NCBI RefSeq assembly: GCF_016900375.1 | Contig: NZ_JACJKB010000001.1 | Coordinates: 1 to 64,000 of the forward strand | DNA from: Collinsella tanakaei | Lineage (GTDB): Bacteria > Actinomycetota > Coriobacteriia > Coriobacteriales > Coriobacteriaceae | Direction: 5' to 3' | Length of the DNA stretch: 64,000 nucleotides | Part shown: positions 7,366 to 18,025 of the stretch, one piece after another | How positions within the stretch are numbered: position 1 is the first letter of the stretch | How the letters are laid out: each line of letters opens with the position of its first letter | Notes under the pieces: generated by a model | Seen by the model: only the letters and a program-made list of their open reading frames with translations | Told to the model about the DNA's origin: nothing | The model's database searches: none | Program-made: the position numbers and the translations under genes

Positions 7366-7495
7366 GGGAGAATCCTTTCGCCAGAGACGCCGTCGGCTGC
7401 CTTCCGCGCTCTGTCCTTCCTGTGTGACAGGCCGCCGCGCGCAGGGCGTTCGGGTATCATGTTGAGGTCACCTACGTGTTCACTTGGGAGTTCAC

Positions 7496-9373
7496 ATGTC
7501 CTCAACCATCAAATTCGCCAACATCGTGCTCGAGCACAACGAGCGCTCCGTTGGGTATCCCGGTCTGTACTGCCGCGCCGACCAGCCGTTCGTCTACGAG
7601 AAGGAGGCGGGTGCCTGGAGGCTGTACGATAAGGGTCGTTTTGATTTCACGACGTACTTCAACTCGCTTTCGGTCATGAAGCTCCGTCGCTACACCTCGG
7701 CGACCAAGTTCTTCCTGCACCTTGAGGTCAAGGGTGCCGCCTGCACCTATTGCCAGACGGTCGCCGATTCCTTCTCGGCCCATCCGAAGCGCCTCGAGGA
7801 CACCGCCATCACGCTCGCGGCGTCCGATGAGTGGCAGTCGATCGATGTCGAGATCGTCGCCTCCGACGAGATCGTCCTGACGGGCTTCGAGCTCGTGTGC
7901 GATGGCCCCGTCTACATCGCCAACGGCTCCTATTCGGTCGAGGTCCCCGGTGAGCTTCGCGACTGCGAGCTCGCGCTCGCGACGACCACCTTCAAGAAGG
8001 AAGCGTTCATCGAGCACAATATCGGGCTCATCCGCAAGGAGATCCTGGAGAGCGACGACGAGATCGCGCGCCACTTCACCATGCACGTGATCGACAACGG
8101 ACGCACGCTCGATGTCGAGCGCCTCGCGGGCGGCGCCATCACCATCTCGCCGAACGACAACGTCGGCGGCGCTGGCGGCTTCACCCGCGGCATGATCGAG
8201 GCCATGGAGCAGACGCCGCGCGCCACGCACGTGCTGCTCATGGATGACGACGTCGCGGTGTCGCCCGAGAGCATCAAGCGCACCTACAACCTCATCCGCA
8301 TGCTGAACGACGAGTACGCCGAGGCGTTCATCAGCGGCGCCATGCTCAACTACGAGGTGGGCGACGAGCAGTGGGAGGATACCGGCTTCATGACGAAGCA
8401 GGGCACCTTCGCTCCCGCCAAGCCCCCGCTGCGCTTCAGCAAGTTCGAGGACCTCGTGTACAACGAGGTGTTCTCCATCCCCAAGGAGATCGTCAAGCTC
8501 GACCAGCGCTATGCCGCCTGGTGGTACTGCTGCATCCCCGTCTCGGTCATCGAGAAGAACGGCCTGCCGCTGTCGGTGTTCGTCCGCTGCGACGACGCCG
8601 AGTACGGCGTGCGCTGCAAGCCCCGCATCATCACGATGAACAGCCTGTGCATCTGGCACCTGTCGTTCCACGTGCGCTACAACGCCGCGGTGGAGCGCTA
8701 CCAGACGACGCGCAACACCATGATCGCCCAGGCGACGACCGGCTTCGCGCCCAAGTCGGACTTCATGTACGAGATGCACAACAACATCCGCCTCGAGCTC
8801 AAGAAGTTCGGCTACGCGAACGCCGAGCTCGTGCTCGACGCCTTCGAGGACTTCATGAAGGGCCCCGACTTCTTCAGCACGCCCGGCGTCGCCGAGGAGA
8901 CCTTCATGCGCGCGAACCGCAACAAGGAGAAGCTCGTGTCGTTCGACGAGCTTCAGCGCCAGGCGCATGCACTCGGTCTCACCGATTTCGACATCAAGAA
9001 GCTCGACCGCCAGTTCGTCGACTCCGACAAGCCGCGTACCCGCTTGCAGCGCATGGCCGATTACGCCTTCGACAACCATCAGAGGCTGCTCGTGAACAAG
9101 GGCCAGGGCTACGCCGTCATCCCGGTGGTCGGCTGGGCGTATCCTGCCGGCGTGATCCGCGGCAAGAAGTACCTGATCGTCATCGACTGGTACAACCGCT
9201 GCGGCGCCATCCGCAAGAAGGACTCCGCGCGCTACGCCGCGATCGAGAAGCGCTACAAGGAGGACATGAAGCGCTATAAGCGCGAGATCAAGGGCCTGCG
9301 CGAGCAGTACGCCTCGCGTCGCGAGGAGCTCACCTCGCTCGCGTTCTGGAAGCGCTATCTGGGCATGCAGTAA
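7496..9373 (+). CDS. GlfT2-like galactofuranosyltransferase
   Basis: About 625 aa. It resembles GlfT2-type GT2 enzymes that use UDP-galactofuranose to extend galactan-like polymers. An N-terminal beta-rich domain (residues 1-160) precedes the GT-A core. The core has NDNVGGAGGFTRGM, the metal-binding DDD at residues 250-252 (LLMDDDVAVSP), and a WHLSFH motif with the likely catalytic-site His388. The C-terminal 200 residues are helical and basic. ATG 7496 follows GGGAG at 5-base spacing; an in-frame TTG at 7484 is less likely. Its presence implies a galactofuranose-containing wall or capsule polymer. The UDP-Gal mutase (glf) is not in this window. Confidence 0.85.
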   Translation: MSSTIKFANIVLEHNERSVGYPGLYCRADQPFVYEKEAGAWRLYDKGRFDFTTYFNSLSVMKLRRYTSATKFFLHLEVKGAACTYCQTVADSFSAHPKRLEDTAITLAASDEWQSIDVEIVASDEIVLTGFELVCDGPVYIANGSYSVEVPGELRDCELALATTTFKKEAFIEHNIGLIRKEILESDDEIARHFTMHVIDNGRTLDVERLAGGAITISPNDNVGGAGGFTRGMIEAMEQTPRATHVLLMDDDVAVSPESIKRTYNLIRMLNDEYAEAFISGAMLNYEVGDEQWEDTGFMTKQGTFAPAKPPLRFSKFEDLVYNEVFSIPKEIVKLDQRYAAWWYCCIPVSVIEKNGLPLSVFVRCDDAEYGVRCKPRIITMNSLCIWHLSFHVRYNAAVERYQTTRNTMIAQATTGFAPKSDFMYEMHNNIRLELKKFGYANAELVLDAFEDFMKGPDFFSTPGVAEETFMRANRNKEKLVSFDELQRQAHALGLTDFDIKKLDRQFVDSDKPRTRLQRMADYAFDNHQRLLVNKGQGYAVIPVVGWAYPAGVIRGKKYLIVIDWYNRCGAIRKKDSARYAAIEKRYKEDMKRYKREIKGLREQYASRREELTSLAFWKRYLGMQ

Positions 9374-9453
9374 GCATGTCGCCCGCCTGCGGCCGTCGTC
9401 GCAGGCGGGCGGATCGTCTGCCGCAGGGGTTCGAGGTACTGAAAGGGGCCACT

Positions 9454-10716
9454 ATGCCTTCTCCCACCGTCAGCGTGATCGTTCCGGTCTTCAACAGCGC
9501 GGCCTATCTCGAGCGCGCCCTCGATAGCCTTTCCGCCCAGACCTTCCAGGATTTCGAGGTCATCTGCATCGATGACGGTTCGGATGACAACTCCTTCGAG
9601 GTGCTGAAGCGCTATCGCGACAGCGGCTCGTTCTCCTCGTTCTCCATTCTGACCCAGCGCCATCTGGGCCCCGGGCGCGCGCGCAACAAGGGCCTTGAGG
9701 AGGCTCAGGGCACCTACGTGCTGTTCATGGACTCGGATGACTTCATCGAGCCCGAGCTGCTCGAGCACGCCGTCGCGCGCGCCGAGGACCTGTCCTGCGA
9801 TATCGTGGTCTGGGACGTCTGGTACTTCAACAACCGCGTTCAGCGCGACCAGCACCCCGCGGTGGGTACGCTCGAGTTCCCGGCCTTCGTGAGCCTCGAG
9901 GAGCAGGGCGAGAAGGCGTTTTGCGCGTCGGATAACCCGGATGCCATCTTCACCTCCTTCCAGAACTGGCCGTGGAACAAGCTGTTCCGCCGCTCGTTTA
10001 TCGAGGAGCACGGCCTGCGCTTCCCCTCGCTTTTCCGTACCGAGGACCTGCCTTTCACCTGCGAGGCGCTCGTGCTGGCGAAGCGCATCGGCGTGATCTA
10101 CGAGCGCCTGTCGCACTACCGCATGCGCACGGGGCAGTCGTCGATGGATACGAAGGACCGTCACGCCCAGGATTTCATCGAGGCGTTCGCGCAGCTGAAG
10201 GGCGACCTGCAGGCGCGCGGCCTGTACGAGACCTACCGCACGAGCTATGTGCGCTGGGCTCTGGGCGGCGCCGTGTACAACCTGAACTCGCTGACGACCC
10301 CGCGCGCCTTCAGCGAGGCCTTCGATGCCCTGCATCGCGGCGGCATCAATCGCATGGGGCTGCTCGACGTCCCGCTGGAGACCTACGCCAACGAACTCGA
10401 CCGTCAGTCCCTGCGCCTGATCGAGTCGGGCAACTCCCTGGCGTACCTGTTCTTCTGGATGCGCAACCACTGCGAGTTCGTCGACGATCACAAGGAGGCC
10501 ATCGACATGCTCGAGGCCGACCTCGACGCGGCGCGCGACGACGCCCACAGGACGCGCGAGCAGCTGAACAGGAAGATTGCCGAGCTCGAGGCGGCGCATG
10601 CTGAGCTGGATGCCTCCGAGGAGGAGCTCGACCGCCTTCAGCGTTCAGCGGAGTTCCGCTACGGTACGGCTCTGCTGCGCATCCCGCGCGCCATCCAGCG
10701 CAGGCTGCGCGGATAG
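9454..10716 (+). CDS. GT2 family glycosyltransferase with coiled-coil tail
   Basis: About 420 aa. A GT-A core at the N-terminus shows VSVIVPVFNSAAYLERAL, CIDDGSDDN and the metal-binding FMDSDDFIEPE near residue 95, the usual layout of processive or capsule-type GT2 enzymes (WaaB/EpsJ-like). Residues 350-400 form a charged coiled coil, and the last residues are an arginine-rich amphipathic tail (FRYGTALLRIPRAIQRR) like those of two neighbours. ATG 9454 follows AAAGGGG; upstream in-frame starts give an arginine-rich leader not seen in the family. It lies 80 bases after the GlfT2-like gene and is followed by a terminator, so it ends that transcription unit. The sugar and acceptor are unknown. 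Confidence 0.85.
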   Translation: MPSPTVSVIVPVFNSAAYLERALDSLSAQTFQDFEVICIDDGSDDNSFEVLKRYRDSGSFSSFSILTQRHLGPGRARNKGLEEAQGTYVLFMDSDDFIEPELLEHAVARAEDLSCDIVVWDVWYFNNRVQRDQHPAVGTLEFPAFVSLEEQGEKAFCASDNPDAIFTSFQNWPWNKLFRRSFIEEHGLRFPSLFRTEDLPFTCEALVLAKRIGVIYERLSHYRMRTGQSSMDTKDRHAQDFIEAFAQLKGDLQARGLYETYRTSYVRWALGGAVYNLNSLTTPRAFSEAFDALHRGGINRMGLLDVPLETYANELDRQSLRLIESGNSLAYLFFWMRNHCEFVDDHKEAIDMLEADLDAARDDAHRTREQLNRKIAELEAAHAELDASEEELDRLQRSAEFRYGTALLRIPRAIQRRLRG

Positions 10717-10744
10717 GGGAGCGTGCCTTTATATCGAAACGAAA

Positions 10745-10770
10745 AAAGCGCCCCGAGAGGGGCGCTTTGT
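10745..10770 (+). terminator. Rho-independent terminator after GT2 gene
   Basis: Stem AAAGCGCCCC / GGGGCGCTTT (10745-10754 with 10759-10768) with a GAGA loop. The A and T flanks let it work in both directions, serving the GT2 gene (+) and the tRNA-Arg (-). Confidence 0.85.
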
Positions 10771-10782
10771 CATGTTGCGGGG

Positions 10783-10856
10783 TGCGCCATGTCGGATTCG
10801 AACCAACGACCTTGGGATTAGAAGTCCCCTGCTCTATCCAACTGAGCTAATGGCGC
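10783..10856 (-). tRNA. tRNA-Arg (anticodon TCT)
   Basis: A full cloverleaf on the minus strand: acceptor GCGCCAT/ATGGCGC, D-arm GCTC/GAGC, anticodon loop CTTCTAA, T-arm GTTGG TTCGAAT CCGAC and discriminator A. One mismatch sits at the top of the anticodon stem (27-43). The 3' CCA is not encoded (the DNA gives CCC), so the CCA-adding enzyme is needed; the gene at 18319 provides it. Confidence 0.92.
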
Positions 10857-11026
10857 ATGGATTACCGTCAGCTATTCTACATGCTTTCCGTATCGCGCGC
10901 CGCGAGGATTCCCTGCGCCCGAATATCACCGCACGTAGACTCGGGGCGCGCGACTGCGATGCCAATGGAAAAAAACCGCAGGTCCCGCGCTTCGGCAGAG
11001 GCGCTGCTCATCCACGGGAGGCAGGG

Positions 11027-12688
11027 CTATCCGCGCTTCGAATCGAGGGCGCGCTTGAGGGCGCGCGGGGCGGCGGTGATCGCGCGGCCGACGCGCCAGG
11101 CCGTGGATTCGCGCAGGCGGTCGATCTCGGCGCGCAGGGCGTCTGCCTCTGCGCGAAGCGCGTCGCGCTCGGCGCGGGCCTCGTCGCGCTCGCGCTCGGC
11201 GGCGTGCCACCACTGCTCCTCGAAGGAGACGTCGCGCGGGTAGAGCATGCGCTTTTCGAGCACGGGCATCGGGCGCTCGTCCACGATGCGCTCGAGCTCG
11301 TCGAATGCGCTCATCGCAAGCGCATGGCATCGCGTCGCGCCCTGCGCGATGAGTTCAAGATCGCCTTCGCGCTCGGCGTCCATGCGATCGTAGGCCTCGG
11401 CGATCTGGCCGGCTGCCGCGTCCATGGGCATGAGGAAGGACGAGCGGTCCATGAGCTCGTAATACGCCGCGATCTTCTCGTTATAGTCGAGGCCGATGCT
11501 CTGCACGCCGCGGACGTTCGCCACGATGGAGCAGTGCAGGCGCATGGCGATGACCGCGTGCGCCGCGGAGATGAGGTCGACCGTGAGGTCGCCGTCTGCA
11601 AAGCAGTCGATCGCTGCGCAGATCGTGGAGTCTCCGATGCGGTCGATGATGGCGCGGTGGAGGGCGACGTCCTCGGGTGAGAGGTCGATGAACAGGGCCT
11701 TCAGCTCGTGGCTGCGACAGATCTGGGCAATCGCCTGGGCCATCGTGTCGACGAAGTTCTCGTGGGCGGTACGATGCTCGCGCAGGGAGATGGCGATGTA
11801 TCCGCCCGGCTCGAGGCCGCGCTCACGCAGGGCCTCTTTGGCCGCCGTGCCGATGGATCGGTCCTCAAGCGTGAATGCGAGATCGGCCTTGCGGTCGATC
11901 TGCGCGGCGGGAACGCCCGCCGCAAGCAGGAGCCGCTCGGTTTCCGCGTCGCGCGGCAGGTAGCGGGCACCGCAGCGCGCCTCGAGGCGCACGAGGCGCT
12001 GCGCGTCCGCATTGGCGAGGGGTCCGGCGCCGATGCCCAGAAACACCGCCGGAACGTCGTACAGGGTGGCCATCAGGGTGTAAGTCGTCTGGCCGCCGAG
12101 CTCGGAGCGGGGGTTCAGGAAGGGGTCGACGGGGCCTGCGCTCCATGCCTCGAAGGCGTCGTCGAACATGATGCCCGCCATGTACACGAGCGCGCTGGCG
12201 CCGCGCAGCATGACGTCGGCGTCGATCTTGCGGTCGCAGGTCGTCGAGACGATGCCGTGGCGCTTGAGCGTCGCGTTCGGATCGTGGCCGATGAGCTGGA
12301 TGTGAGCATCCGCGAAGCGCTTCTCGATCTGGCGGCAGATCAGCGAGAAGATCAGCTCGTCGCCGAAGTTGTTCGGACCCACGTAGCCAAAGACCACGAA
12401 GCGACGGATGGGGGCGTCAGAGCCCTTGCCGGTCGCCTCGAGCCGCTCGAGGATCTGCTCGGCGGTCTCGTTCCCGCAGCCGATGTAGTCGGGCTTGAAC
12501 CGATCGACGAAAGTGCTCAGCGTGGACATGTCGGGGCTGCCGTCCTCGTTGAGGCAATTCGCGAACCTGCGGGGGTCGATGACCTCGACGGCATGCCCGG
12601 CCAGGCGAAGCGTCTCGAAGCAGGTCCACACGAGGTCGTCGTTGCGGTATTCCATCGGCGCGACGATGGCTATGCGGTAATATTTCAT
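11027..12688 (-). CDS. Polysaccharide pyruvyl transferase family protein
   Basis: About 553 aa. ATG 12688 (MKYYRIAIVAP) has AGGGAAGG in front; longer in-frame starts do not. Residues 1-110 are a Rossmann-like leader domain. Residues ~115-460 match the polysaccharide pyruvyl transferase family (CsaB/WcaK type), with FGYVGPNNFGDELIFSLI, the central FLGIGAGPL segment and the C-terminal RLHCSIVANVRGV. These enzymes add pyruvate ketals from PEP to sugars, giving a negative charge that can anchor surface proteins. Residues ~490-530 form an Arg/Glu/Ala coiled coil, ending in STAWRVGRAITAAPRALKR. That ending is nearly the same as in the divergent GT2 gene at 12738, with which it shares a 49-base promoter gap. 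Confidence 0.85.
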   Translation of the reverse strand: MKYYRIAIVAPMEYRNDDLVWTCFETLRLAGHAVEVIDPRRFANCLNEDGSPDMSTLSTFVDRFKPDYIGCGNETAEQILERLEATGKGSDAPIRRFVVFGYVGPNNFGDELIFSLICRQIEKRFADAHIQLIGHDPNATLKRHGIVSTTCDRKIDADVMLRGASALVYMAGIMFDDAFEAWSAGPVDPFLNPRSELGGQTTYTLMATLYDVPAVFLGIGAGPLANADAQRLVRLEARCGARYLPRDAETERLLLAAGVPAAQIDRKADLAFTLEDRSIGTAAKEALRERGLEPGGYIAISLREHRTAHENFVDTMAQAIAQICRSHELKALFIDLSPEDVALHRAIIDRIGDSTICAAIDCFADGDLTVDLISAAHAVIAMRLHCSIVANVRGVQSIGLDYNEKIAAYYELMDRSSFLMPMDAAAGQIAEAYDRMDAEREGDLELIAQGATRCHALAMSAFDELERIVDERPMPVLEKRMLYPRDVSFEEQWWHAAERERDEARAERDALRAEADALRAEIDRLRESTAWRVGRAITAAPRALKRALDSKRG

Positions 12689-12737
12689 TGCCTTCCCTTC
12701 CGAATGTTTACGACCAATCATACAGTGCGAGGTTCCC

Positions 12738-13808
12738 ATGGTCCGTTTGTCTGTCGTCGTCCCCATGTTTAATGCAGAACGCTTCGTCGACTCGTGTTTC
12801 GAGATCCTCGACCGCCAGGGCCTTGAGCGCTCCGAGTTCGAGGTCGTCGTCGTGGATGACGGCTCGACGGACGCGACGGGCGAGCTGTGCTCCCGCTATG
12901 TGAGCGAGTGGGGCAACGTCACGCTGCTTCGCCAGGAGAACTCGGGTGCCGGCGTGGCGCGCAACCGCGGCATGGATGCGGCGAGGGGAACCTACCTCTA
13001 TTTCTTCGATGTGGATGACGAGCTCGATGACGGCTCCCTTCGGGTGCTGCTCGAGCGGTGCGAATCCTCCGACCTCGACGTGCTGTTCTTCGGCGGTCGC
13101 GTGGTCTACGAGCCTGCGGAGTGCGAGCGCGACTACCCTCAGGATCCGAACTATTTCGCGCGCCGTCAGCCGGAAGGCGTCGTCGATGGCGAGGAGATGT
13201 TCATCCGCCAATCGGAGGACGGCAACTTCTGCGCCCAGCCGTGCCTGCTCATGACGAAGCTCGAGACGATGCGCGCAGGTGGCATTCGGTTTGCCGAGGG
13301 CATCGTCAACGAGGACAACCTCTTCGTGCTCCAGGCGACCCTGCGTTCGCGCAGGGCCGATGTCGACCCCACGCTACGCTACACCTATGTCGTGCGCCCC
13401 AATACCGTCACGACCGATAACCGCACGGGTGGCAAGCGCTTCTTGGCCCATATGGTGCTCGCTCAAGAGTTCGAGCTCGAACGCCAGCAGGCTATCGCGC
13501 AAGGCAAGGATCGCCTGGCTGCGGCTATCGGCGCGATCATCATCTGGTTCATGGGCATCATCGAGGAGAACTGCCCCGAGCCCATCGAGGAGTTCAAACC
13601 GTTTTGCGACCCGCGTTTCGCCCATCTCGCCATGGCGGCGCGCTTCGTGCAGCAGGACGTTCGCAACCTGCGCAGCACGCGCGACGAGGCGGAGCGCGCC
13701 CGCAGGGCCGAAGCGCGCGTGGCGGAGCTCGAGGCCTCCACGACGTGGCGTGTCGGCAGGGCGGTGACCGCCGTCCCCCGCGCCCTGAAGCGCATGATCG
13801 CGCGGTAG
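12738..13808 (+). CDS. GT2 family glycosyltransferase
   Basis: 356 aa. N-terminal GT-A core with SVVVPMFNAERFVDSC, VVDDGSTDATGE and the DXD-like YFFDVDDELDD near residue 95, typical of inverting GT2 capsule or teichoic-acid transferases. A short coiled coil is followed by the terminal motif STTWRVGRAVTAVPRALKR, matching the pyruvyltransferase gene on the other strand. GCGAGG lies 5 bases before the ATG. It is the last gene of the surface-glycan block; 67 bases later the PTS genes begin. The sugar cannot be predicted. Confidence 0.85.
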   Translation: MVRLSVVVPMFNAERFVDSCFEILDRQGLERSEFEVVVVDDGSTDATGELCSRYVSEWGNVTLLRQENSGAGVARNRGMDAARGTYLYFFDVDDELDDGSLRVLLERCESSDLDVLFFGGRVVYEPAECERDYPQDPNYFARRQPEGVVDGEEMFIRQSEDGNFCAQPCLLMTKLETMRAGGIRFAEGIVNEDNLFVLQATLRSRRADVDPTLRYTYVVRPNTVTTDNRTGGKRFLAHMVLAQEFELERQQAIAQGKDRLAAAIGAIIIWFMGIIEENCPEPIEEFKPFCDPRFAHLAMAARFVQQDVRNLRSTRDEAERARRAEARVAELEASTTWRVGRAVTAVPRALKRMIAR

Positions 13809-13875: not shown

Positions 13876-14679
13876 ATGGCTCATCAGAAGAAGATCGTCG
13901 CGGTGACCGGCCATCCCACCGGCGCGGTGCACGCGCTCATGGCCAAGGAGGCGCTCGAGCATGCCGCCTCCGAGCGCGGCGTGGATATCCGCGTCGAGAC
14001 CCGCGCCCCCGGAGGTGTGCTGGGCACGCTCATGCCGGCGGAGATCGATGAGGCCGCAGCGGTCATCATCGCCTCGGATGAGCATATCGATACCTCGCGG
14101 TTCTCCGGCAAGCCGCTGGTGTTCTCCGGCATCGCCGGCGCGCTCTCGTTCCGTTCCGCCGGCGAGCTCGTCGACCGCGCTTTGGGCCTGACGGATGGCG
14201 CGGTGGAGGCGGACTCGCCGCGAGAGCCCGACTTCGTCTCCGAGAGCTCGATATTCTTCGCCGAGGGGTTCAGCGATCGCGATGAGCTGCTCGATTTCGT
14301 GTCCCGCTCTGCCGTCATGCTGGGCTATGCAGACGATGCGGCGCAGCTCAAGGCGGCCTTCCTGAAGCGCGAGGCGGAAGGGGCCACCGGTATGCTCGAG
14401 GGCTTCGCGATCCCGCATGCCAAGTCGCCGACCGTGCGGCGGGCGTCCGTCATCGTCGTGCGCGACGACGACGGGGTCGAGGGCTGGGAGACCATGGATG
14501 GTCGTCCCGTCACCGTCGCCATCGCCCTGCTTATCCCCGAGGGAGGGGAGGGCTCGGTCCATCTCAAGTTGCTCTCGCGCATCGCCGAGGCGCTGATGGA
14601 TGAGGATTTCCGCAGCGAGGTCAAGCAGGCGAGCGACCCCGCCGCCATCGCCGCCGCCATCAACGCGCGGCTTTCGTAG
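13876..14679 (+). CDS. Fructose-type PTS IIB-IIA protein, IIB cysteine replaced
   Basis: 267 aa, two PTS domains and no membrane (IIC) part. Residues 1-100 look like a fructose IIB domain (KIVAVTGHPTGAVHALMAKEALE), but the expected active-site Cys (TACPTG in the family) is His13 here (TGHPTG). Residues 115-267 are a IIA domain of the mannitol/fructose class with its phospho-His181 in GFAIPHAKS. AGGGAGGG precedes the ATG. It lies upstream of HPr and enzyme I on the same strand, so phosphate transfer to the IIA His is plausible. With the IIB Cys lost, sugar phosphorylation by this protein is doubtful; it may regulate or pass phosphate to other IIB partners. Confidence 0.82.
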   Translation: MAHQKKIVAVTGHPTGAVHALMAKEALEHAASERGVDIRVETRAPGGVLGTLMPAEIDEAAAVIIASDEHIDTSRFSGKPLVFSGIAGALSFRSAGELVDRALGLTDGAVEADSPREPDFVSESSIFFAEGFSDRDELLDFVSRSAVMLGYADDAAQLKAAFLKREAEGATGMLEGFAIPHAKSPTVRRASVIVVRDDDGVEGWETMDGRPVTVAIALLIPEGGEGSVHLKLLSRIAEALMDEDFRSEVKQASDPAAIAAAINARLS

Positions 14680-14886
14680 GCGTCTCATGCCGCCAGGGGG
14701 TCAGCTCGACTGGATTTCTCCAGTCGCGGCCCGCGAGCGTCCGTTCGCCTATCGGCGAGGCCGTTTTTACCGCTCTCGGGGTTCTGCATCCCATTTTGCC
14801 GCTGTTGCGTTACACTAAGTGACGTATTTTGGCGCGCCCGATTTACCGTTGCTTAGGGTGTGCGCACGAAGAAAAAGGAGAAAAGT

Positions 14887-15150
14887 ATGGTTTCCGAGAA
14901 GGCTACCCTCATCAATCCCCAGGGTCTGCACATGCGTCCCGCCGGCCTGTTCGCCTCCACCATGGGCAAGTATGCCTGCGACGTGACGATCGTCACCGCC
15001 GACAAGGAGGTCAACGGCAAGAGCCCCATGGCCCTCATGGCTGCTGGCATCCCCTGCGGCACCGAGGTTGAGGTCCGCTGCGACGGCGCCGACGAGAACG
15101 AGGCCCTGGCTGCTGCTCTTGAGCTCATCAAGAGCGGTCTCGGCGAGTAG
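14887..15150 (+). CDS. ptsH: Phosphocarrier protein HPr
   Basis: 87 aa, full HPr length. The phosphorylation site is His15 in NPQGLHMRPAG, and the regulatory Ser46 lies in NGKSPMAL. HPr passes phosphate from enzyme I to sugar-specific IIA domains in the cytoplasm; Ser46 suggests HPr kinase control as in Gram-positives. AAGGAG stands 6 bases before ATG 14887; an in-frame ATG at 14860 has no such site. A terminator follows at 15197, before ptsI. Confidence 0.95.
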   Translation: MVSEKATLINPQGLHMRPAGLFASTMGKYACDVTIVTADKEVNGKSPMALMAAGIPCGTEVEVRCDGADENEALAAALELIKSGLGE

Positions 15151-15280: not shown

Positions 15281-16984
15281 ATGTACGAGGGAGTAAACGC
15301 ATCTGAGGGCATCGGTATCGGCACCGTAGCAGTCGCCGTGGAGCCCGATCTGACCTTCACACCGCACACCGTCGAGGACACCGAGGCGGAGAAGAGCCGC
15401 TTCCAGGCCGCTCTCGACGTCTTCTGCGAGAAGACCGCGGCCCAGGCCGAGCACATGAAGAAGAGCGTCGGCGAGGCCGAGGCCGAGATCATGAGCGGCC
15501 ACATCATGCTTGCGCAGGATCCGGAGCTTACCGGTTCCATCAAGGCCTCCATCGAGGGCGGCACCTGCGCCGAGCAGGCGCTCGTCGAGACGAGCACCAT
15601 GTTCGAGAACATGTTCCTCTCCATGGATGACGAGATGTTCCGCCTGCGCGCGGCCGACATCGCCGACATCCGCACCGGCATCCTGGCCGAGCTGCTCGGC
15701 CGTGAGGTCGTCGACCTCTCCGTGCTTCCCGAGGGCACCATCGTCGTCGTGCACGACCTGACCCCGTCGATGACCGCGACCATCGACAAGGAGAATGTCG
15801 CCGGCATCGTCACCGAGACCGGTGGCCGCACCTCTCACTCCGCCATCATCGCGCGCGCCCTCGAGATCCCGGCCGTGCTCTCCGTCTCCAACGCCTGCGG
15901 CGCCCTCCACAACGGCATGACCGCCATCGTCGACGGCATCCACGGCGTCGTCATCGGCGAGCCCGACGAGGCCACGCTTGCCGAGTACACGAAGCGCGCC
16001 GAGGACTTCGCCGCCGAGAAGAAGGCCCTCGAGGCCTTCCGCGGCAAGGCGACCGTCACCGCCGACGGCGTCAAGAAGATTCTCGCCTGCAACATCGGCA
16101 ACCCCGACGACACCAAGGGTGCTATCGAGCACGATGCCGAGGCCATCGGCCTGTTCCGCTCCGAGTTCCTGTTCATGGACGCCAAGTCGCTGCCCTCCGA
16201 GGAGGAGCAGTTCGACGCCTACCGCAAGGTTGCCGTTGCCATGAAGGGCGCCCCGGTCATCATCCGTACGCTCGACGTGGGCGGCGACAAGGAGATCCCG
16301 TATCTCAAGCTCGTGAAGGAAGAGAACCCCTTCATGGGTTACCGCGCCATCCGCTACTGCCTCGATAATCCCGACGAGTACAAGGTCCAGCTCCGCGCCC
16401 TGCTGCGCGCGAGCGCTTTCGGCGACATCAAGATCATGGTCCCCATGGTCACCTGCGTCGAGGAAATCCGCGCCGTCAAGGACCTCGTTGCCGAGTGCAA
16501 GGCCGAGCTGAGCGAAGAGGGCTACAAGTTCGACGAGAACATCGAGGTCGGCATCATGGCCGAGACCGCTGCCTCCGCGAACATCCCTGAGCTGCTTGCC
16601 AAGGAAGCCGACTTCTTCTCCATCGGCACGAACGACCTCACCGGCTACACCATGGCTGCCGACCGCGGTAACGACAAGGTGTCCTACCTCTACAGCTGGT
16701 ACTACCCGGCGGTGCTGCGCGCCATCCGCAACATCATCGTGGCCGGCTCCGAGGCGGGCATCATGGTCGGCATGTGCGGCGAGGCCGCTGCCGATCCGCT
16801 GCTGACGCCGCTGCTGATCGCTTGGGGTATGGACGAGTTCTCCACCTCCGCTCCGAGCATCCTGCGCACGCGCAAGGCCATCTCGCAGTGGTCGGTTGCC
16901 GAGGCCAAGGAGCTCGCCGACAAGGCGCTCGCGTGCTCCACGGCCGAGGAGGTCAAGGCGCTGCTCGAGGCCAACGCCAAGTAA
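15281..16984 (+). CDS. ptsI: PTS enzyme I (phosphoenolpyruvate-protein phosphotransferase)
   Basis: 567 aa, usual length. It takes phosphate from PEP and gives it to HPr. Domains in order: an HPr-binding helical domain inserted in the N-terminal phosphohistidine domain, the active His186 in GGRTSHSAIIAR, then the PEP-binding TIM barrel with IRTLDVGGDKEIPYL, FFSIGTNDLTGYTMA and the catalytic Cys in GMCGEAAADP. ATG 15281 follows AGGAGAGG; the in-frame start at 15218 lies inside the upstream terminator. Together with ptsH it serves all PTS sugars of the cell. Confidence 0.95.
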   Translation: MYEGVNASEGIGIGTVAVAVEPDLTFTPHTVEDTEAEKSRFQAALDVFCEKTAAQAEHMKKSVGEAEAEIMSGHIMLAQDPELTGSIKASIEGGTCAEQALVETSTMFENMFLSMDDEMFRLRAADIADIRTGILAELLGREVVDLSVLPEGTIVVVHDLTPSMTATIDKENVAGIVTETGGRTSHSAIIARALEIPAVLSVSNACGALHNGMTAIVDGIHGVVIGEPDEATLAEYTKRAEDFAAEKKALEAFRGKATVTADGVKKILACNIGNPDDTKGAIEHDAEAIGLFRSEFLFMDAKSLPSEEEQFDAYRKVAVAMKGAPVIIRTLDVGGDKEIPYLKLVKEENPFMGYRAIRYCLDNPDEYKVQLRALLRASAFGDIKIMVPMVTCVEEIRAVKDLVAECKAELSEEGYKFDENIEVGIMAETAASANIPELLAKEADFFSIGTNDLTGYTMAADRGNDKVSYLYSWYYPAVLRAIRNIIVAGSEAGIMVGMCGEAAADPLLTPLLIAWGMDEFSTSAPSILRTRKAISQWSVAEAKELADKALACSTAEEVKALLEANAK

Positions 16985-17092: not shown

Positions 17093-18025
17093 ATGTTCTA
17101 TACGCTCACTGCAAACCCGGCGGTCGACATGACCGTCACCTGTCCTCCGTTGATTCCCAACGAGAACATCCGCTCGGTCACCGCGAGCTACACGCCGAAC
17201 GGCAAGGGCCTCGACGTGTCGTTCGCCCTCAAGAAGTTCGGTGTCGACTCCGTCGCCCTCGGCTTCTTCGCCGGCTTCACGGGCAAGTACATCGTCGATG
17301 AGACCATGAACATGGGCTGCCTGTGCCGCCCGGTTTGGATCGACGGCATCACGCGCATCAATTCGTACTTCAACGACGGCGAGAACGAGTACGGCATCCT
17401 GAACGCCGGCGCCCCGCTCACGCCCGAGGGCGAGCGCGAGCTCTATCGCATCCTCGACACCACCGGCGACCTCGAGTGCCTGATTATCTCCGGCTCGCTG
17501 CCCCCGAAGGCCTCCCGCTACTTCCTGGATGAGGTCATCGACCACGCCCAGGACCGCGGCGCCGACGTCATCCTCGACCTCTCCAGCGATCGTCTGAAGA
17601 AGCTCGCGGACAAGAAGCCGCTGCTCATCAAGCCGAACCATCACGAGATGAAGGCCATCTTCGGCGTGCCGGTGAACACGGATGACGAGGTGCGCGTCGC
17701 CATGAAGATGGCGCACGACATCGGTGTCCAGAACATCCTGCTCACCCGCGGTAGCCGTGGTGACGCCTACTTCTCCAACGGCGAGGACATCTGGTACGCC
17801 CGCCGCGAGTTCAACATCAACCTCGTGTCCTCGGTCTGCGCTGGCGACTGCACGCTTGCCGCGTTCATCCTCAAGTGGTACCACAACCGCGACAACGTTG
17901 AGGAGGCTCTGCGCCTCGCTCTGGCGACCGGCGCCAACGTCGCCGAGAGCGTCGGCCTGGGCGACTTCGGCCGCGTTGAGGAGTACAGCCACCGCATCGC
18001 GGTGCGCAAGCTCGAGCGCCAGTAA
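17093..18025 (+). CDS. PfkB family sugar-phosphate kinase, probable 1-phosphofructokinase
   Basis: 310 aa, the length of 1-phosphofructokinase/tagatose-6-phosphate kinase. It starts FYTLTANPAVDMTV, has GKGLDVSFALKKFG (substrate contact), ISGSLPP, KPNHHEM and the C-terminal anion-hole/catalytic motif SVCAGDCTLAAF with Asp252. The first Gly of the usual GAGD is Cys here. It converts fructose-1-phosphate (or tagatose-6-phosphate) to the bisphosphate with ATP. Its place after fructose-type IIA, HPr and enzyme I supports the fructose role. ATG 17093 has GGAAAGGGGAG upstream; TTG 17075 is an unlikely earlier start. A terminator and an A/B repeat pair follow. Confidence 0.85.
   Translation: MFYTLTANPAVDMTVTCPPLIPNENIRSVTASYTPNGKGLDVSFALKKFGVDSVALGFFAGFTGKYIVDETMNMGCLCRPVWIDGITRINSYFNDGENEYGILNAGAPLTPEGERELYRILDTTGDLECLIISGSLPPKASRYFLDEVIDHAQDRGADVILDLSSDRLKKLADKKPLLIKPNHHEMKAIFGVPVNTDDEVRVAMKMAHDIGVQNILLTRGSRGDAYFSNGEDIWYARREFNINLVSSVCAGDCTLAAFILKWYHNRDNVEEALRLALATGANVAESVGLGDFGRVEEYSHRIAVRKLERQ

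Follow-up and report, generated by a model that had tools for sequence, protein, structure and literature searches.

A 267-residue Collinsella protein, read from an open reading frame and its translation at positions 13876-14679 (+) of the window (the whole 64,000-nucleotide stretch of Collinsella tanakaei DNA that was analysed), fuses the IIB and IIA domains of a PTS Enzyme II without a IIC domain and carries a histidine (His13) at the position of the IIB active-site cysteine. Because the histidine at this site is held by selection in two species, these data suggest that what remains of an Enzyme II has been recruited to a new role, probably a regulatory one. The reading we favour, with moderate confidence, is that this transport-dead Enzyme II persists as a cytosolic IIA signalling protein in which the IIB domain serves as a docking partner for IIA.

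Architecture and locus of the IIBA gene

An earlier note on this DNA had pointed to positions 13876-14180 as a IIB domain in which Cys is replaced by His13, with the IIA His181 retained and no IIC gene adjoining. These positions do cover the IIB part, but the gene itself extends to 14679. The protein starts with MAHQKKIVAVTGHPTGAVHALMAKEALEHAA, and its translation confirmed both residues, His13 being present in the C. tanakaei An368 relative as well and His181 lying within GFAIPHAK, in a column that is invariant across 25 aligned rows. The neighbouring genes likewise agreed with the note, with a glycosyltransferase-like gene upstream and ptsH, ptsI and pfkB downstream. The features of the region are as follows.

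12738-13808: glycosyltransferase-like gene, upstream neighbour of the IIBA gene
13876-14679 (+): IIB-IIA fusion protein without IIC, 267 residues, P0001 (open reading frame, translation, Pfam, 67-68% identical protein in C. tanakaei An368)
13876-14190 (+): IIB(fru) domain, residues 1-105 (Pfam, AlphaFold2 model, 2r48 structure match)
13903-13947 (+): catalytic-loop segment, residues 10-24, apparently under purifying selection (about 10 synonymous differences and 1 replacement difference from An368)
13912-13914 (+): codon of His13, at the active-site Cys position (translation; His also in An368)
14233-14676 (+): IIA(fru) domain, residues 120-267 (Pfam; PtsN structure 3urr_A)
14416-14418 (+): codon of His181, the expected IIA phosphorylation site (invariant column of the 25-row alignment)
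14744-14769 (+): terminator-like hairpin between the IIBA gene and ptsH (consensus scan only)
14887-15150 (+): ptsH, HPr (PF00381, 95.9 bits; protein identical in An368)
15281-16984 (+): ptsI, Enzyme I (TIGR01417, 603.5 bits, cut-off 341.7)
17093-18025 (+): PfkB-family sugar-phosphate kinase (PF00294; TIGR03168, 238.9 bits, cut-off 216.4)

In Pfam, the IIB half matched PTS_IIB (PF02302, residues 10-90, 37.7 bits against a cut-off of 23.6) and the IIA half, beyond a short linker, matched PTS_EIIA_2 (PF00359, residues 120-263, 101.7 bits against 27). With the fructose IIB model TIGR00829 (cut-off 76.85 bits) the window protein fell below the threshold at 68.9 bits, the An368 protein slightly exceeded it at 77.5 and three canonical relatives scored 105.9-110.5, while the narrower IIA model TIGR00848 was narrowly missed (100.8 versus 103.5). 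At an E-value of 0.001, the protein matched neither PF25554 (FruA IIB') nor the mannose-family models in Pfam. Moreover, the active-site Cys in the CPTG loop that marks a fructose IIB is His13 here, and the IIC that a functional fructose Enzyme II has in or adjoining the protein was found neither within the IIBA protein (Pfam) nor at its locus in the window.

The AlphaFold2 model, built from 25 aligned sequences, reached a mean pLDDT of 93.7, as a model output that carries no inter-domain confidence. Its IIB half superimposed on the Bacillus subtilis IIB structure 2r48 (Z 19.6, rmsd 1.4, 105 residues aligned), and its IIA half on the PtsN structure 3urr_A (Z 22.2, rmsd 2.0, 147 residues). Given this confident model and these structure matches, both the IIB and the IIA fold appear intact.

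A consensus scan of the region returned two terminator-like sites versus 0.6 expected and no promoter-like site, both of which are to be taken as weak evidence. Further upstream (7484-13808), the window holds glycosyltransferase-like genes and a polysaccharide pyruvyl transferase-like gene, named by sequence reading, in an order that matches An368.

The ptsHI locus across Collinsella

The corresponding locus of most Collinsella, immediately upstream of ptsH-ptsI-pfkB, encodes an Enzyme II of the order IIB-IIC-IIA with Cys at the active site. The window protein shares locus and domain order with this Enzyme II (IIB 50-53% and IIA 57-65% identical), but differs from it in lacking IIC, in having His for Cys and in the divergence of its IIB outside the loop. 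The relatives that have the IIBCA-type IIC are IIB-IIC-IIA proteins of mostly about 670-790 residues (as open-frame lengths) and read ATGCPTGIAHTFMAKEALE or nearly so at the loop. Among the matches listed, this IIC occurred in 33 of the 43 genus genomes, with FruABC instead in eight, both in none and neither in two (G030, in which IIA reaches the contig end, and G041, in which the best IIA match is about 30% identical); this tally was done by hand, and because it treats related genomes as independent, the Fisher p of the mutual exclusion is not an independent test and is not leaned upon here. G008 carries IIBCA together with another IIC relative (43%) that contains a stop. An IIA match of at least 48% identity was found in 42 of the 43 genomes, the match in G036 being partial only.

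The window's own genome encodes a complete FruABC elsewhere, the IIC of which is about 42% identical to the lost IIC and is its only match in the genome. In all eight FruABC genomes the IIC has gone from the old locus. What is left there is IIB(His)-IIA in the window genome and in An368 (G043), a IIB without catalytic loop followed by IIA in G018, and IIA with no recognisable IIB in G033, G039, G040, G044 and G045, as determined by reading of the loci and, for G018, G043, G044 and G033, by Pfam scans as well. Since the loop or the whole IIB is missing from six of these genomes that kept IIA, IIB appears to be dispensable for the role of IIA in those sisters. In a tree of HPr and Enzyme I (24 sequences, leaving out G039), the window genome pairs with An368 inside a clade that includes G018, G033, G040, G044 and G045 (support 100). 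A IIA-only gene beside ptsHI is also seen in G062, G063 and G004, which belong to two other genera of the family. In G021 and G025, a IIA-only gene at ptsHI is accompanied by IIBCA elsewhere.

Some further observations were made at these loci. In G033, a family-2 glycosyltransferase homologous to the product of the window's 12738-13808 gene and IIA lie in one 624-residue frame (L057:6679-8550) with both Pfam domains, which may be a real fusion or may instead yield IIA from an internal Met. The IIA-only proteins of G044, G039 and G045 (L055, L061 and L063) start with DIAAAT, which by eye resembles the first IIB strand minus the loop. Finally, the window's PfkB is 99% identical to that of G033 versus 89% for Enzyme I, and this difference hints at gene exchange at the ptsHI-pfkB locus.

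Distribution of and selection on the His13 loop

Among the matches listed, the An368 protein (L034) is the sole full-length close relative of the window protein (67-68% identical). Its loop reads VTGHPTGAVHAIMAKEALE, with the His encoded by CAC versus CAT in the window, while the closest canonical family members read ATGCPTGIAHTFMA. The replacement of Cys, on which the earlier note had focused, is thus real but does not stand alone, as five loop positions (V10, H13, A17, V18 and A20) differ from the canonical form. Since all five are common to both His species, the loop would most simply have been remodelled before these species split and then left unchanged.

The alignment with homologues that the note had proposed yielded His in An368 and Cys in all 55 other IIB places of the family, among the matches listed (53 by pattern, L144 and L162 by reading; the window gene, the An368 gene and the loopless G018 gene are excluded from this sample). 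At the DNA level, an H-P-T-G-x-x-H-x-x-M pattern, searched across order and phylum with zero mismatches allowed so that other His-type loops could escape, matched two of the 395 order genomes, both of them Collinsella; among 198 genomes drawn from the phylum it matched one, the window's own. A wider family of His-type IIB domains was considered and set aside, the pattern being confined to two Collinsella among the 395 order genomes. Among the listed titles and abstract openings of open-licence papers, we found none dealing with this Collinsella gene or with a fructose IIB that has His in the Cys position.

A sequencing or assembly error at the Cys codon, combined with Cys at this site in homologues, had been named in the note as a finding that would undo its claim. 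Such an error is extremely improbable, because turning TGC or TGT into CAT or CAC takes two base changes, and because the independent An368 genome has His with a different codon in the same derived loop; a read error at His13 was therefore rejected.

Selection was estimated by Nei-Gojobori counting on one genome pair (window versus An368), using short segments with synonymous sites near saturation. Residues 10-24 showed 10.0 changes per 11.8 synonymous sites versus 1.0 per 33.2 replacement sites (Fisher p 2e-7), and residues 6-36 showed 18.0 per 24.7 versus 7.0 per 68.3 (Fisher p 1.6e-8). For residues 37-105, the corresponding values of 26.5 per 56.3 and 48.5 per 150.7 did not reject neutrality at 0.05 (p 0.07). 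The loop segment had 5 of its 31 residues replaced, compared to 34 of 69 in the rest of IIB (p 0.002). In the 55 pairwise comparisons of 11 canonical IIBCA genes that served as a control, replacement divergence was 0-0.10 for the loop segment and 0.06-0.18 for the remainder of IIB, versus 0.10 in the loop segment and 0.32 in residues 37-105 for the His pair. The loop segment is still constrained, if only as loosely as in the most divergent canonical pairs, and the remaining IIB, including the canonical ETHGQVGVEN stretch, is freed beyond the canonical range. With about 10 synonymous changes versus 1 replacement in the loop, while the other part of IIB outpaces the 55 canonical pairs, the His loop is, judging from these counts, under purifying selection and not in simple decay. 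Decay of the entire IIB was considered too, and the substitution counts, if this pairwise result holds, rule it out for the loop, though not for residues 37-105. The IIA domain is constrained (dN/dS 0.13, window versus An368). As a separate observation, the window and An368 differ at synonymous sites by about 1 in the IIBA gene versus 0.2-0.3 in ptsH, ptsI and pfkB, a contrast that could stem from codon bias or recombination.

Possible roles of the IIBA protein

In the favoured reading, the ancestor would have been a fructose Enzyme II of the order IIB-IIC-IIA that lost its membrane IIC, probably once the separate FruABC permease took over fructose uptake. The product would now be cytosolic, encoded beside HPr and Enzyme I. 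As a constrained IIA adjoins HPr and Enzyme I, it most likely continues to receive phosphate from HPr-P on His181, and could act as a reporter of PTS state or as a phosphate sink. No transport is expected since IIC and the thiol are both missing, and IIB would no longer hand phosphate to sugar. Instead, its loop and first helix, which we take to be the part of IIB expected to face IIA in related complexes, may be kept as a surface for its own IIA, with His13 replacing Cys, so that IIB probably adjusts or senses whether IIA is phosphorylated. The suggestion in the earlier note that the protein may have become a regulator fits the loss of IIC, the presence of FruABC elsewhere and the retention of IIA beside HPr and Enzyme I. 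Regulation via HPr-Ser-P is not the expected route, because HPr kinase is reported to be absent from Actinobacteria (PMC2405797).

Several known systems resemble the protein in part. The IIB' domain of Escherichia coli FruA (144.4 bits with PF25554) is likewise a fructose-type IIB without active-site Cys, reading DANLGQARAYMA, and is described in PMC6872149 as serving protein contacts and not transfer. However, it is part of a permease that has a functional IIB and IIC, and unlike the window protein it has a loop other than HPTG. EIIA-Ntr (PtsN) has a IIA fold without transport partner, as reflected in the structure match (Z 22.2), but the window protein scored only 57.1 bits with TIGR01419 (cut-off 138.7), is fused to a IIB and is closer to fructose-type IIA. 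The EIIB-Gat domains of PRD regulators such as MtlR exemplify a IIB-like domain in regulatory use, and in type I Mga the EIIB-Gat Cys is reported to be replaced by Gln (PMC11537053); these domains sit in DNA-binding proteins, whereas no DNA-binding or PRD domain was found by Pfam in the window protein.

Alternatively, as the earlier note also raised, His13 may be a new phosphate acceptor, at the end of a relay from PEP via Enzyme I, HPr and IIA-His181 to IIB-His13, used for signalling or for transfer to a partner, which we regard as possible though on the unlikely side. The intact H-P-T-G loop and its purifying selection would agree with this, as would the five loop changes common to both species, among which I17A and T20A could admit a larger side chain. 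The His ring would set the phosphate further out than Cys does, so that the anion hole may misfit. Transfer from one His to another is normal within the PTS, and the IIB domains of the mannose family (ManX/ManL type) use His as phosphate acceptor (PMC7587183), but these belong to a different family, the window protein matching PTS_IIB. The existence of Cys-less IIB domains that are retained for contacts (PMC6872149) and the fact that six sisters kept IIA without the loop or IIB both argue against phosphorylation of His13. The more specific proposal that a Cys-type P-loop was rebuilt around a phosphorylatable His, with the loop changes making the swap work and a soluble relay from Enzyme I via HPr and IIA-His181 to IIB-His13 conveying a signal, strikes us as rather unlikely.

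The IIB could also be a dying remnant, in which transport was lost, Cys drifted and deletion is under way as in the sisters. The loopless IIB of G018, the five genomes without recognisable IIB and the near-neutral evolution of residues 37-105 are in line with this, but drift would not have spared residues 10-24 and the frame is intact in both His species, making such a fate improbable. It is very unlikely that IIBA still serves sugar uptake together with a IIC encoded elsewhere. The genome does contain 14 EIIC matches, but the sole match to the lost IIC belongs to FruABC, a permease that comes with a IIA and a Cys-type IIB. The second permease with a IIA2 domain, on contig C2, is likewise supplied with a IIB and a IIA, and His13 lacks the thiol that the fructose family uses.

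Selection on a Cys-to-His loop is unexpected. Under the favoured reading of a cytosolic IIA signalling protein with a docking IIB, the IIBA gene would present an Enzyme II caught between transporter and soluble signalling protein, and in the sisters the process would have ended differently, with the loop or the whole IIB gone. If His13 does carry phosphate, it would mean that a Cys-based IIB loop can switch chemistry, and the protein would allow the loss or change of acceptor residues in PTS relays to be tested directly.
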